From: Hyphomicrobiales bacterium
GTDB lineage: Bacteria; Pseudomonadota; Alphaproteobacteria; Rhizobiales; Rhizobiaceae
Reading direction: 5' to 3'
DNA length: 64,000 bases
Assembly (NCBI GenBank): GCA_900473045.1
Contig: UCKS01000001.1
Location: forward strand, 1-64,000
Shown: in pieces, positions 12,125-18,803 of the stretch
Layout: each line of letters starts with the position of its first letter
How positions within the stretch are numbered: the stretch's first letter is position 1
Position numbers and translations under genes: made by a program
Notes under the pieces: model-generated
Told to the model about the DNA's origin: nothing
Database searches by the model: none
What the model saw: only the letters and a program-made list of their open reading frames with translations

Positions 12125-12850
12125 ATGAGCAGAGTAGCATTGGTCACAGGTGGTTCGCGCGGTATTGGCGCCGCGATATCCATCGCCTTGAAGGCGGCCG
12201 GGTACAAGGTCGCCGCGAACTATGCCGGAAATGACGAGAAGGCCAAGGCCTTCACCGAAGTCACCGGCATTCCGACCTACAAATGGGACGTTTCCGACTA
12301 TGCCGAGTGCACCAAGGGTATTGCCCGGGTGGTGGATGACCTCGGCCCCGTGGAGGTTCTGGTCAACAATGCCGGCATCACCCGTGACGCCATGTTCCAC
12401 AAGATGACGCCGGAGAGTTGGGGTGCGGTTATCGACACCAATCTCACCGGCCTTTTCAATATGACCCATCCTATCTGGACCGGCATGCGCGACCGCAATT
12501 TCGGCCGCGTGATCAACATCTCCTCGATCAACGGGCAGAAGGGCCAGATGGGGCAGGTCAATTATTCGGCGGCCAAGGCCGGCGATCTCGGCTTTACCAA
12601 GGCCTTGGCCCAGGAAGGTGCTGCCAAGGGGATCACCGTCAATGCCATATGCCCCGGCTATATCGGTACGGAAATGGTGCGGGCGATCCCGGAAAAAGTG
12701 CTGACAGAGCGGATCATTCCGCAGATTCCCGTTGGCCGTCTTGGCGAGCCGGAGGAAATCGCGCGCTGCGTCGTATTCCTCGCCTCGGACGATGCCGGCT
12801 TCATCACCGGATCGACGCTTTCGGCCAATGGCGGTCAGTTCGTCGTCTGA
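12125..12850 (+). CDS. phaB: acetoacetyl-CoA reductase
   Basis: 241 aa short-chain dehydrogenase that reduces acetoacetyl-CoA to (R)-3-hydroxybutyryl-CoA with NADPH. The Rossmann motif is TGGSRGIGAAIS, NNAG is present, and the catalytic set is the Ser of INISSINGQKGQMGQVNYSA with YSAAK. The substrate-recognition part GYIGTEMV and the terminal SANGGQFVV are typical of PhaB rather than FabG. It is the second gene of the phaAB operon and is followed by a terminator. Confidence 0.96.
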   Translation: MSRVALVTGGSRGIGAAISIALKAAGYKVAANYAGNDEKAKAFTEVTGIPTYKWDVSDYAECTKGIARVVDDLGPVEVLVNNAGITRDAMFHKMTPESWGAVIDTNLTGLFNMTHPIWTGMRDRNFGRVINISSINGQKGQMGQVNYSAAKAGDLGFTKALAQEGAAKGITVNAICPGYIGTEMVRAIPEKVLTERIIPQIPVGRLGEPEEIARCVVFLASDDAGFITGSTLSANGGQFVV

Positions 12851-12873
12851 TACCCTGTCTGTTTTGCCATCAG

Positions 12874-12897
12874 CGGCGCCTTCACGGGCGCCGTTTT
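12874..12897 (+). terminator. rho-independent terminator of phaAB
   Basis: CGGCGCC (12874-12880) and GGCGCCG (12887-12893) form a perfect 7-bp stem followed by TTTT, 23 bp after the phaB stop. Confidence 0.8.
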
Positions 12898-13001
12898 GCA
12901 TCCCGGAGAAAGATTAACGTGGCGGATGCCGTTTGGCGCGGCGTCTCGGGTTATCCACCGTTTCATATGGTTAACAATTTGTTTTTACACCATATATCGC
13001 G

Positions 13002-13052
13002 GTGAACAAACCGGGAAATCATCTGCGTCCGTGATTCGTCTCCGGTTCGTTC
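13002..13052. repeat. imperfect 51-bp direct repeat, copy 1
   Basis: Aligns without gaps to 13482-13532 (offset 480 bp) with about 36 of 51 positions identical. Shared blocks are GTGAACAAA, GATTCGTC and TTCGTTC. The two copies flank most of the GANTC cluster. Confidence 0.5.
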
Positions 13053-13481
13053 TCGCTTTGGTTGAGTCGTTAACGGCCGATGGAAAAAAGGGTCCAAGCG
13101 ACGGTTGGTGGCAGGCCGTATCCGGTTCTGCAGTTTGTACGGATGCGGGTCCGAATCTGGCGAATGGCATTCGATCTGGCATCGAAACAGGCTGGCGCTC
13201 GCTACCATATGTTGTGCGAACTCGGCGGTTTGAATCAGTTCCGTCGCAACTCGTGCCGGTTTTGTTTTGTCCGTTGTTTCGATTGTTGCTAATATTAAGA
13301 CTGCTCTACAGTATCGCGGGCCAGGTCGATTTTTCCTCGATATTCAGTTGTTTGGATTCTGAATCTCAAAACGGCCTGGGTTCCAGTGCGACTCGATACG
13401 TTCATTTTCCCGTAAAATCCGCCGTGAAAAAAGCGATTCAGCATCTGGTGAGAATCCGGCTCAGGAAATCAATATCTAGCA

Positions 13482-13532
13482 GTGAACAAAGCCTGAATCT
13501 GTGCGAGTCAGCGATTCGTCGCTGTTTCGTTC
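13482..13532. repeat. imperfect 51-bp direct repeat, copy 2
   Basis: Partner of 13002-13052, same orientation. This copy contains three GANTC sites (13495, 13505, 13513), of which the last is shared in position with 13033 in copy 1. Confidence 0.5.
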
Positions 13533-13717
13533 CTCCGCTGTTCCGGATTCCGGCGATGGAGGGTGGAAGTGTGGGCCGAAAGCCCCATTTGCACGTTTCA
13601 TGACCGCGCGCCCCTTGCGTTTGTGCTTTGGCGTGGGCATGTGTTGTCCGCCGGTTGAAACGGCTTTGAAACGCCGTGAATGGCCTTCACAGACTGAAAG
13701 TGCGCAGGATCCATACA

Positions 13718-16700
13718 GTGCCTGACCAACCGATGATCTTGAGCGGCCGCGGCGTGATCGCGGTGCTCGGCCCCACCAATACCGGCAAGACGCATTACGC
13801 GATCGAGCGCATGGTCGCGCACGAAAGCGGTGTCATCGGCCTGCCGCTGCGCCTTTTGGCGCGCGAGGTCTATACGCGCGTCGTCGAAAAGGTCGGTGCC
13901 CACAATGTCGCGCTGATCACCGGCGAGGAAAAGATCACCCCGCATATGGCGCGCTTCTCGGTGTGCACCGTGGAAGCCATGCCGCGCGAGACCAAGGCCG
14001 CCTTTGTCGCGATCGACGAAGTGCAGCTGGCCGGTGACCTGGAGCGCGGCCATATCTTCACCGACCGGCTGATGCATCTGCGCGGCCGCGTCGAGACGCT
14101 GCTTCTGGGTGCCGCGACCATGCGGCCTATCCTCGAACATCTGTTGCCGGGTATTACCGTCGTCGAGCGTCCGCGGCTGTCGCAGCTTCTCTATGCCGGC
14201 TCCAAGAAGATCACCCGCCTGCCGCAACGCACCGCCATCGTCGCCTTCTCGGCCGAGGAGGTCTATGCGATTGCCGAGCTGATCCGCCGCCAGCGCGGCG
14301 GGGCTGCCGTCGTGCTCGGGGCGCTGTCGCCGCGCACGCGCAATGCGCAGGTGGCGCTCTACCAGGCCGGCGATGTCGAATATCTGGTGGCGACCGATGC
14401 GATCGGTATGGGGCTTAACCTCGATGTCGATCACGTCGCCTTTGCGCAGGGCCGTAAATATGACGGTTACCAGTTCCGCGATCTCAATCCCGGCGAGCTG
14501 GCGCAGATCGCCGGGCGCGCGGGCCGTCACCTGCGCGACGGTACCTTCGGCGTCACCTCTCGGGTCGAGCCGTTCGACAACGAACTGGTGCACCGGATCG
14601 AATCGCATCATTTCGATCCGGTTCGCGTCCTGCAATGGCGCTCCAAGTCGCTCAACTATGCCTCGATCCCAGCCCTGAAGAAGAGTTTGGACGCCGCACC
14701 CGCCGTTCATGGGCTGACACGGGCCTTGCCGGCGGTGGATCAGCAGGCTTTGGACTATCTTTCGCGCTATCCGGAGGTTACCAGTGTCGCAACGACACCG
14801 GAGCGTGTAGAAAAACTCTGGGAGGCCTGTGCGCTTCCCGACTACCGGCGTATAACGCCGGCGCAGCATGCCGATCTGATTTCGACAATCTATGCCGATC
14901 TCGTCCGGCGTGGCACAGTGAATGAAGATTTCATGGCCGAACAGGTCCGCCGCGCGGACCATACGGACGGTGAAATCGACACATTGTCTGCAAGAATTGC
15001 ACAAATTAGGACATGGACCTATGTGTCCAACCGTCCGGGATGGCTTGCCGATCCGACACACTGGCAAGAAAAGACGCGGGAAATCGAGGATCGATTGTCT
15101 GACGCGTTACATGAAAGGTTGACGAAACGCTTTGTTGATCGCAGGACATCTGTGCTCATGAAGCGCCTGAGAGAGAATGCGATGTTGGAAGCTGAAATCA
15201 GTGTAAATGGCGATGTCTTCGTTGAAGGTCATCATGTGGGACAATTGGCCGGGTTCCGTTTCACGCTGGCGACAGTGGCCGATAGTCTTGATGCGCGTGC
15301 AGCGCAAGGGGCCGCGCAAAAAGCGTTGGCTCTCGAATTCGAGGCACGGGCGGCACGGCTGCATGCGGCGGGCAATGCCGATCTGGCCTTGGCGTCGGAT
15401 GGTCTCGTGCGCTGGCTCGGCGATCCGGTGGCGCGGCTGACGGCCAGCGATCATATCATGCGTCCGCGCGTGCTGTTGCTCGCCGACGAGCAGCTGCAGG
15501 GCAATGCCCGTGAGCACGTGCTCGCCCGCATCGAGCGCTTCGTCAATCATCACATCTCGACGGTGCTGAAGCCGCTCGACGATTTGTCGCGCGCCGAAGA
15601 CCTTGAAGGTCTCGCCAAAGGCCTGGCTTTCCAGCTGGTCGAAAACCTCGGCGTGATGTTCCGCCGCGATGTTGCCGATGACGTCAAGTCGCTGGATCAG
15701 GAGGCACGCGCCTCCATCCGCCGTCACGGTATCCGCTTCGGCGCCTATCACATTTTCATGCCGGCCCTTTTGAAGCCTGCTCCGGCGGAACTCATCACCC
15801 TGCTCTGGGCGCTGAAGAACGACGGTCTCGACAAGCCCGGCTACGGCGATCTGATCCCCGTTCTGGCTGCTGGCCGAACCTCTGTGGTGACCGACCCGAC
15901 CTATGAGCGTACGTTCTACAAGCTGGCCGGTTTCCGGTTCCTCGGAAAACGTGCCGTCCGCATCGATATCCTCGAGCGTCTGGCCGATCTGATCCGTCCG
16001 CTGCTGCAGTGGAAGCCGGGTACGGCGGCGCGTCCGGACGGTGCTTATGACGGCCGCCGCTTTACGGCGACGACGGCGATGCTTTCGATTCTGGGCGCGA
16101 CGCCGGATGATATGGAAGAGATCCTCAAGGGTCTCGGTTACAGAGCCGATGCGGTGAAGATCGAGGAAGCTGCGGCTTTCCTCGCCGCGCAGTCCGGACC
16201 TGCCACACCGGCAACCGATGCTGCAGCGTCCGATGCACCGGCTGAAACTGCCGATCATGATGATGATGCGGACGCCGCAGGTGAAGAGCCTCACGCTGCT
16301 GAAGCGGCACCGGAGCCGGCAGCAGAGCCTGCTGCCGTTGTTGCGGAAGCCGGTGTTCCCGCAGAAGCCGATGTGACCGCGACCGAGCAGGCCGTCGCCG
16401 CCGAGCAGGCCGGCGAACTGGCCGAGCCGGTCGAAGCCAAACCGGTTCTTCTGTGGCGCCCAGGCAGCCGCAACGACAATCAGCGCTCGGGTGGACGCCC
16501 GCAGGGTGATCGCCGTGGTGGCAACAACCGGGCACCGCAGGGTGAAGCGCGCCGCGAAGGCGGCGAGCCGCGCCGTGAGGGTGAAGGCCGTCGCGAAGGT
16601 CGCGACGACAATCGCAAGCCGGGTGGTGGTGGCAGACCCGACCGCAATCGCGGCCGTGACGGTGGCAAGCCCCAGGGCGGTCAGCGAAATGAGAAAGGCG

Positions 16701-16840
16701 ACCGTCCGGATCGTAACGACCGCGGCGCTAAGCCGCAGGCCGCCAAGTTCGAGGCCCGTCCTCCGCGCAAGGAAAAGCCGATGGATCCGGATTCGCCTTT
16801 CGCCAAGCTCGCTGCTCTCAAGGAGCAGATGAAGAAGTAA
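13718..16840 (+). CDS. mgpS: SUV3-like DEAD/DEAH-box helicase (MgpS type) with RGG-like tail
   Basis: 1040 aa. Walker A GPTNTGKT at residues 18-25, DEVQ box at 100-103, and motif VI QIAGRAGRH near 263-271, preceded by ATDAIGMGLNLDVDHVAF; this arrangement matches the SUV3 RNA-helicase family of the mitochondrial degradosome. A long central part has helical-bundle-like sequence, an Ala/Glu/Pro-rich acidic linker follows (about 828-915), then an Arg/Gly/Asp-rich tail (about 918-1005) with RREG and GGRP repeats, likely to bind RNA. GTG 13718 is chosen because AGGAT sits about 7 bp before it; alternatives are GTG 13676 and ATG 13733. It is followed 16 bp later by an S4 RNA-binding gene. RNA turnover is inferred from the family. 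Confidence 0.87.
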   Translation: MPDQPMILSGRGVIAVLGPTNTGKTHYAIERMVAHESGVIGLPLRLLAREVYTRVVEKVGAHNVALITGEEKITPHMARFSVCTVEAMPRETKAAFVAIDEVQLAGDLERGHIFTDRLMHLRGRVETLLLGAATMRPILEHLLPGITVVERPRLSQLLYAGSKKITRLPQRTAIVAFSAEEVYAIAELIRRQRGGAAVVLGALSPRTRNAQVALYQAGDVEYLVATDAIGMGLNLDVDHVAFAQGRKYDGYQFRDLNPGELAQIAGRAGRHLRDGTFGVTSRVEPFDNELVHRIESHHFDPVRVLQWRSKSLNYASIPALKKSLDAAPAVHGLTRALPAVDQQALDYLSRYPEVTSVATTPERVEKLWEACALPDYRRITPAQHADLISTIYADLVRRGTVNEDFMAEQVRRADHTDGEIDTLSARIAQIRTWTYVSNRPGWLADPTHWQEKTREIEDRLSDALHERLTKRFVDRRTSVLMKRLRENAMLEAEISVNGDVFVEGHHVGQLAGFRFTLATVADSLDARAAQGAAQKALALEFEARAARLHAAGNADLALASDGLVRWLGDPVARLTASDHIMRPRVLLLADEQLQGNAREHVLARIERFVNHHISTVLKPLDDLSRAEDLEGLAKGLAFQLVENLGVMFRRDVADDVKSLDQEARASIRRHGIRFGAYHIFMPALLKPAPAELITLLWALKNDGLDKPGYGDLIPVLAAGRTSVVTDPTYERTFYKLAGFRFLGKRAVRIDILERLADLIRPLLQWKPGTAARPDGAYDGRRFTATTAMLSILGATPDDMEEILKGLGYRADAVKIEEAAAFLAAQSGPATPATDAAASDAPAETADHDDDADAAGEEPHAAEAAPEPAAEPAAVVAEAGVPAEADVTATEQAVAAEQAGELAEPVEAKPVLLWRPGSRNDNQRSGGRPQGDRRGGNNRAPQGEARREGGEPRREGEGRREGRDDNRKPGGGGRPDRNRGRDGGKPQGGQRNEKGDRPDRNDRGAKPQAAKFEARPPRKEKPMDPDSPFAKLAALKEQMKK

Positions 16841-17827: not shown

Positions 17828-18233
17828 CGCAGGCAGCGTCTAGCAGCCGGTTGATTCCCGGTTGCAAAAGATGGCGAAATTTAGGGAATCATGGCTTAAC
17901 CATGTCCGTGACGGGCTGGTTGGCCTTGATGGCCGTTGTAAAGCAAATTATTGATTTCTGCAGTTTTTTATGATAGGGTCTAAAAACTGATCCACATCGT
18001 GGCACTTGCGTGTGCCCGAAAAACCATCACGAAAGCAAAAGAATCCCACTGCGCGGCTGACCCCAAATACGCAACGGCAGTTGCTTGTGTGTGATCGCCC
18101 TGCAGAAGATCGATTTGATGACCGTTGGAACGGATCAGCATGGAGTCACCCGACGGTGCCCCCGTCCATCCCGGGCCTGACTGACCCGGCCCCGGCTTGT
18201 TGCCGGGAGCGTAACAGGGAGTTTTTGAAACGA
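17828..18233. other. 406-bp spacer upstream of carD
   Basis: No gene is seen. It holds four GANTC sites (17853, 17886, 18041, 18143), a CtrA-half-site-like CTTAACCAT near 17893, and a small hairpin CCCGGC-TTGTT-GCCGGG at 18191-18207 about 27 bp before the carD start, which has no T tract and could be part of a leader. The promoter is not obvious. Confidence 0.5.
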
Positions 18234-18803
18234 ATGACGACCCAGCAGAAAAAATCTTCAACACGCCATGGATTCAAGACCGGTGAATCGATCGTTTACC
18301 CAGCCCACGGCGTTGGACAAATTGTAGCAATTGAAGACCAGGTGGTTGCGGGCATGTCGCTCGAACTGTTTGTCATCGATTTCGAAAAGGACAAGATGCG
18401 TCTCAAGGTGCCGGTAGCAAAGGCCGTCTCCATTGGCATGCGCAAGCTCTCTGAGACCGATTTCGTCGAACGTGCATTGAAGGTTGTTCAGGGCAGGGCA
18501 CGCGTCAAGCGGACCATGTGGTCCCGCCGCGCACAGGAATATGATGCCAAGATCAATTCCGGTGACCTGATCTCGATCGCCGAAGTTGTTCGCGACCTCT
18601 ATCGTGCTGAAAACCAGCCAGAGCAGTCCTATTCCGAACGTCAGCTTTACGAAGCTGCGCTTGACCGCATGGCGCGCGAAATCGCAGCCGTGAACAAGAT
18701 GTCGGAAACCGAAGCTGTCCGTCTTGTCGAAACGAACCTCAACAAGGGTCCGAAGCGCGGCAAGGCTATCGAAGAAGACGAAGCGCAGGAAGAAGCTGCG
18801 TAA
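18234..18803 (+). CDS. carD: CarD/CdnL-family RNA-polymerase-binding regulator
   Basis: 189 aa. The N-terminal CarD/TRCF RNAP-interaction domain (about 10-75) has GFKTGESIVYPAHGVGQIVAIEDQ and ELFVIDFEKDKMRLKVPV; the helical C-terminal domain has TMWSRRAQEYDAKINSGDLI with the conserved tryptophan that contacts the promoter. In Caulobacter and other bacteria CdnL stabilises open complexes at rRNA and housekeeping promoters. The start ATG 18234 follows GGGAG at 18218. The acidic Glu/Ala tail is typical of the alphaproteobacterial proteins. Confidence 0.94.
   Translation: MTTQQKKSSTRHGFKTGESIVYPAHGVGQIVAIEDQVVAGMSLELFVIDFEKDKMRLKVPVAKAVSIGMRKLSETDFVERALKVVQGRARVKRTMWSRRAQEYDAKINSGDLISIAEVVRDLYRAENQPEQSYSERQLYEAALDRMAREIAAVNKMSETEAVRLVETNLNKGPKRGKAIEEDEAQEEAA

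Follow-up and report, generated by a model that had tools for sequence, protein, structure and literature searches.

A GANTC-rich repeat unit conserved upstream of a Suv3-like helicase gene in Alphaproteobacteria is a candidate replication-responsive operator

The window (the whole analyzed stretch of 64,000 nucleotides, from the Hyphomicrobiales assembly GCA_900473045.1, contig UCKS01000001.1) contains, between phaB and the gene for a Suv3-like helicase, a non-coding gap (12851–13717, plus strand, 867 bp), which carries the whole of an element with 13 GANTC sites. This cluster is built of copies of a nearly ungapped unit of ~102 bp, located at 12965–13059 and 13436–13547. With roughly even confidence, the region is read from its sequence as a composite cis-regulatory operator of the helicase gene that would respond to replication and the cell cycle.

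The left flank of the gap was identified as acetoacetyl-CoA reductase (phaB; TIGR01829) and the right flank as the helicase (13718–16840, plus strand, start codon provisional; PF22527), whose best solved-structure relatives are Suv3 proteins; the initial annotation, which had named phaB and an RNA helicase and had called the region gene-free, was correct on both counts. The Sinorhizobium meliloti counterpart of the helicase gene is mgpS (SMc03877), which is acid-induced in that organism (excerpt of PMC4941405). Five reading frames of the gap were without a Pfam match above cut-off, and the longest frame (235 aa, TTG start, 12896–13603) was rejected as a gene: each of nine aligned relatives interrupts it with four to seven in-frame stops, and most alignment gaps are not multiples of three. 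No phage match was found for the gap; six records of a plasmid collection matched, and the two that were inspected (H4 and H5) both represent the helicase locus. A promoter-like sequence, TTGCGT-N17-CATGTG (13615–13644, plus strand), was picked by eye and is conserved in the genus; a promoter consensus scan of positions 12800–13800 reported none, this candidate included. The unit closest to the helicase ends ~70 bp above the likely −35 region of this candidate. In Rhizobium sp. NLR16a (locus L034, 1657–3000), the unit-bearing gap from phaB to the helicase also contains two small genes, one for a glycine zipper protein and one for a DUF3309 protein. At another locus (L007), tblastn spread the matches to phaB and to the beginning of the helicase over more than a single frame, which suggests frameshifts or assembly errors in that genome.

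A recount over the 64-kb window bore out all 13 previously listed GANTC positions between 13033 and 13550, that is, within 518 bp. The window holds 90 sites in total, and its runner-up stretch of 518 bp contains six. The peak is exceptional along the genome as well: a sample of 20 stretches from its contig starts (252,234 bases) contained 330 GANTC (1.31 per kb) and no more than six in any 518 bp. If sites are taken as independent, with 0.68 expected per 518 bp, the Poisson probability of at least 13 sites is ~5e-13 for a given stretch and ~7e-9 after multiplication by how many stretches of this length the genome contains. The chance expectation had initially been put at about two, which is near that of dinucleotide shuffles (338 GANTC per 64 kb); because the window holds 90 instead, this expectation is too high for the real GANTC content and the cluster is rarer than was stated. 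Intergenic GANTC are about twofold commoner than genic ones in Ensifer (excerpt of PMC8725594), and an enrichment of that size does not account for the cluster. The second densest GANTC stretch of the window (17853–18289; six sites in 437 bp) is flanked by genes for a ferredoxin and a CarD-like protein (named from the S. meliloti gene order).

A DNA-level search with the 867-bp gap gave matches in 31 of 61 genomes, the window's own included. In 27 of 30 fetched loci, phaB was upstream and the helicase downstream, and these 27 gaps contain 2–17 GANTC sites, corresponding to 7.3–23.4 per kb, compared with 0.36–3.7 per kb in the flanking genes; the poorest gaps are those of L029 (2 sites in 249 bp) and L024 (10 in 1,373 bp). 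The three loci lacking phaB have 3, 14, and 7 sites in the 899 bp upstream of the helicase. Alignment of the relatives revealed conserved blocks amid drifting sequence, the GANTC cluster being kept while much of its surroundings has changed. Across 26 gaps (L027–L030 were left out of this test), GANTC amounts to 32.5 per kb inside the units and 8.6 per kb outside of them, where six of seven control palindromic pentamers occur at 1.6–2.8 per kb and TCNGA at 5.6. Because GANTC is enriched over the control pentamers even outside the units, the site itself appears to be selected in the gaps.

The best conserved copy in the window is the proximal unit (13436–13547; 82.8 bits with model R1), which, like all features described here, was read on the plus strand. 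It contains two NrdR-box-like motifs (13439–13479) with cores at 13439–13448 and 13470–13479, 31 bp apart, followed by a left arm GAAC-N7-GAAT (13484–13498), GAGTC and the invariant GATTC (13505–13517), and a LexA-box-like right arm GTTC-N7-GTTC (13529–13543); the dyad of both arms falls between 13513 and 13514. The upstream unit (12965–13059; 48 bits with R1) has NrdR-like boxes 29 bp apart, GAAC at 13004–13007, GATTC at 13033–13037, and GTTC at 13049–13052; the second GTTC is not kept. Between the two lie a decayed middle unit (about 13202–13276, 3.1 bits only), which has the NrdR-like box CTACCATATGTTGTGC, has lost the core, and is intact in some relatives, and a block conserved in the alignment of relatives (13331–13368), which carries the palindrome GATTCTGAATC with two GANTC sites. 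In general form, the unit shows, one after the other, a partial NrdR-like box AT.T.G, C.A.AT.T.G 31 bp on, GTGAACAAA, GAATC, GAGTC, GATTCG, GATTCGTTC, and GTTCC. GAAC (columns 42–45) and GAA (53–55) mirror GTTC (87–90) and GTTC (98–101) around an axis at column 71.5, at the start of GATTCG.

An HMM of the unit, refined in four rounds and trained on the loci later counted by it, found 183 almost gap-free units in 102 of 114 loci, a set in which L001, L031, and L032 all represent the gap of the window itself; copy number ranged from one to four units per locus. The column tables (70 proximal and 51 upstream units) leave out the loci below L033. All 70 proximal units have GATTC (columns 71–75) and both GTTC, 67 have GAAC, 58 GAGTC, and 53 the second GATTC, and two further sites keep GA.TC with a variable middle base (44/70 and 37/70). 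GATTC or GAGTC is present at columns 71–75 in 49/51 upstream units, whereas 5/51 keep the second GTTC and 6/51 the first NrdR-like box. This invariance is partly built in because the HMM selected the units. When 65 spacings between units, taken from related and thus non-independent genomes, were examined for a 10.5-bp phase, R was 0.60; helical phasing was dropped because of this non-independence and because a test over 27 distinct values resulted in R = 0.27 (p = 0.14).

In the window's genome, R1 scored strongly at two places, both of them within the gap, and the match ranking after these reached 9.5 bits. The 21-bp core, with up to two mismatches, was found in 92 of 151 family genomes, and a reversed control pattern gave zero matches. 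Among 80 named loci retrieved together with the Suv3-like helicase gene, 68 carry the unit upstream of it; four Aureimonas, Xanthobacter, and Ancylobacter are among the 12 that lack it. The window, L033, and 46 named loci served to build R1, and only the class sample is independent of this model. There, 25 of 190 genomes match at E ≤ 0.01, under stricter filters by which weak matches are missed. At E ≤ 1e-4, 18 loci from 13 families beyond the window's were obtained, and in 17 of them the helicase follows downstream, on the same strand and within ~1 kb; in the exception (L136), the unit precedes another gene. The helicase was downstream in one (L150) of six weaker class loci. The upstream neighbor varies (phaB, an acyl-CoA-dehydrogenase-like gene, and others; names assigned by eye). 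In four loci from compact genomes of 1.4–1.9 Mb, the unit ends 75–115 bp from the helicase start codon, and some genomes have more distant units, as far as 1.7 kb upstream.

Xanthobacter (G207) has the helicase without the unit, and its six matches are in other parts of the genome, one of them at E 1e-7 and the weaker ones at 1e-4 to 0.03; in the other eleven genomes lacking the unit at the helicase, nothing below E 0.04 was found genome-wide. The Xanthobacter copies at L118, L125, L127, and L128 consist of GGAAC, then GATTCG, then GTTCC; three are in tandem in L118, several have a GTCCCA-type palindrome ~30 bp on, and some are apparently at gene ends (read by eye). They are possibly a separate repeat family.

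Control of the helicase gene is the favored function because the unit is coinherited with one gene and lies close to it in compact genomes. How the unit might be read is suggested by its core. The extended motif reported for Caulobacter GcrA is TGATTCG/YGAKTCK, whereas GcrA from Brevundimonas showed no preference for it (excerpt of PMC7987155); binding of GcrA, orthologues included, is methylation-dependent (excerpt of PMC3667746). Columns 70–76 fit YGAKTCK in 70/70 proximal units, partly by construction of the HMM, and in 49/51 upstream units. GcrA was present in 19/19 strong carriers, the window's genome included, compared with 115/190 class genomes (irrespective of kinship), and was lacking in 3/6 genomes with weak matches. 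Tabulating GcrA against the unit, counted by hand and with an E cut-off set post hoc, gave 18/49 against 0/140 (p = 2e-12), and 18/114 against 0/75 when all GcrA matches were used; this co-occurrence is confounded by phylogeny. Among the functions proposed in the initial annotation, an epigenetic element or a platform for a methylation-sensitive protein thus fits best, in view of the Caulobacter motif and the GcrA-bearing strong carriers, with the behavior of the Brevundimonas protein counting against it.

The NrdR-like pair, spaced 31 bp in the proximal units of most Rhizobiales loci, resembles in its core pattern C.A.AT.T.G and its 31-bp spacing (15-bp spacer) the pairs of ribonucleotide reductase operons, for which a spacer rule of 15–16 bp holds (excerpt of PMC12051234). 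The core of box 2 is present in 53/70 proximal and 43/51 upstream units, and partial box 1 in 48/70 and 6/51, respectively. A pair 31 bp apart also precedes nrdJ of the window's genome, and the boxes of the unit score lower than those of nrdJ. Unlike NrdR operons, the helicase locus is without a ribonucleotide reductase gene (the nrd genes are on other contigs), its boxes are weaker, and most upstream units do not have the pair. Upstream of nrdJ (L156), one more box, ACACAACATCTGGTGT, occurs ~250 bp farther upstream of the pair.

If the region is such an operator, passage of the replication fork would leave its GANTC sites hemimethylated, CcrM would restore full methylation late in the cycle, and GcrA, a methylation-dependent protein that binds RNA polymerase, would read the GATTCG core. 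A DNA-damage signal might come in through a LexA-type repressor bound to the GTTC repeats and a dNTP signal through NrdR on the paired boxes, with the result that helicase expression would track stress as well as the state of replication; the additional GANTC sites could sharpen or lengthen the methylation switch. Methylation, protein binding, and expression at the locus are all inferred here. Against the operator stand the Xanthobacter copies elsewhere in that genome, L136, and the 12/80 helicase loci without a unit, and neither the NrdR pair (6/51 upstream units) nor the second GTTC (5/51) is general. The distance of ~70 bp to the likely −35 region and the units up to 1.7 kb upstream are unusual, being atypical of operators for GcrA, LexA, and NrdR. 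It is conceivable, if somewhat doubtful, that the unit is an alphaproteobacterial control unit as deep as the class, in which a CcrM site centers opposed GAAC/GTTC repeats alongside an NrdR-type dNTP-sensor box; one locus would then sense the passage of replication together with DNA damage and the supply of nucleotides, possibly via a dedicated binding protein.

Among the closest known elements are the CcrM/GcrA-controlled promoters, such as those of mipZ, podJ, and ftsZ in Caulobacter, in which GANTC likewise lies upstream of a gene and with which the core shares its fit to the extended GcrA motif. The Agrobacterium gcrA locus (six GANTC in 250 bp) and repABC loci are GANTC-dense, too (excerpts of PMC11514494 and PMC3667746), and hypomethylated GANTC loci shielded by MucR in Caulobacter and S. 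meliloti (excerpt of PMC5172544) are similar in that GANTC sits in non-coding DNA. In contrast to CcrM/GcrA promoters, the element is a fixed 102-bp unit in up to four copies, conserved in the class at one gene, with built-in LexA- and NrdR-like motifs and a Suv3-like helicase as the target. No prior description of it was found in searches of open-access literature, and within this scope the initial description as an undescribed element stands; the kinds of site are known already, and their fixed combination and the depth of conservation are undescribed as far as these searches reach. A non-coding sequence of ~100 bp traceable in 14 families of the class, down to genomes of 1.4 Mb, is unusual among bacteria. 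The locus may be one concrete place where CcrM methylation, GcrA, and stress repressors meet, and it points to possible control by the cell cycle of a Suv3-like helicase, whose mitochondrial relative acts in RNA turnover.

It is rather unlikely that the region is instead a stand-alone chromosomal site for replication timing, titration, or segregation, read by a protein that senses GANTC methylation, with the helicase linkage being ancestral synteny. Such a site would work like crtS of Vibrio cholerae or datA of Escherichia coli, which are single non-coding chromosomal loci with repeated methylatable or initiator motifs. This reading was retained because of the Xanthobacter copies off the helicase, L136, the remote units, and how far the element lies from the probable promoter in the window, and it is consistent with a single locus in the window's genome, repeated units of methylation sites, and a nearly ungapped, protein-binding-like geometry. 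The DnaA-box-like sequence noticed initially was confirmed as TTATCCACC (12951–12959, plus strand), upstream of the first unit; TTATCCAC is exact in 14/30 aligned loci. DnaA boxes, which also speak for a chromosomal site, are limited to some clades, in 13/80 named loci (11 TTWTNCACA compared with 2.1 in shuffles). In 20 genomes, the element and the parS pair are separated by 46–803 kb, as measured to the close pair and ignoring stray one-mismatch sites, one of which lies ~49 kb from the element in both G219 and G353; G016, G194, G152, and G108 were left out, as were G163 and G122, in which element and pair are on different contigs. An oriC/parS region was rejected given these distances and the sparse DnaA boxes, and the replication or segregation site suggested in the initial annotation is weakened by the same two results, the Xanthobacter copies keeping it alive. 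Unlike crtS and datA, the element is tied to one gene across families while its place relative to parS is inconstant; the same gene follows in 17/18 class loci although the other neighbor changes, and the spacing to the helicase in compact genomes is promoter-like.

Still less probable is that the region is mainly an SOS operator of the helicase gene, with GANTC as a by-product of GATTCGTTC-type repeats. The right arm matches the alphaproteobacterial LexA box exactly: GTTC-N7-GTTC, found in 70/70 proximal units, is the Caulobacter SOS box (excerpt of PMC9578287), and a box of the same type, GAAC-N7-GAAC, is present at the lexA promoter of the window's genome. However, the unit adds to this box a second, opposed repeat (GAAC-N7-GAA) and has a CcrM site where the dyad shared by both repeats lies; its most invariant part, GATTCG at the dyad, lies outside any LexA box, the second GTTC is mostly missing from upstream units, and GANTC is enriched beyond the units as well.

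That the region is transcribed into a small or structured RNA, as had been considered initially, is very unlikely. It would fit a long conserved non-coding stretch and the weak hairpin CAGCGATTCGTCGCTG followed by T-rich sequence, but an Rfam search gave no match near threshold, and the consensus fold comprises six pairs, which form because GANTC is a palindrome and none of which is changed on both sides, so that the proposed small-RNA template was discarded. A repeat family or miniature mobile element settled at the locus, to which the tandem copies and the dispersed Xanthobacter copies with their palindromes could point, is the most improbable reading of all, as the element occupies a single locus in the window's genome, is syntenic in relatives, and is conserved as far as other families of the class.
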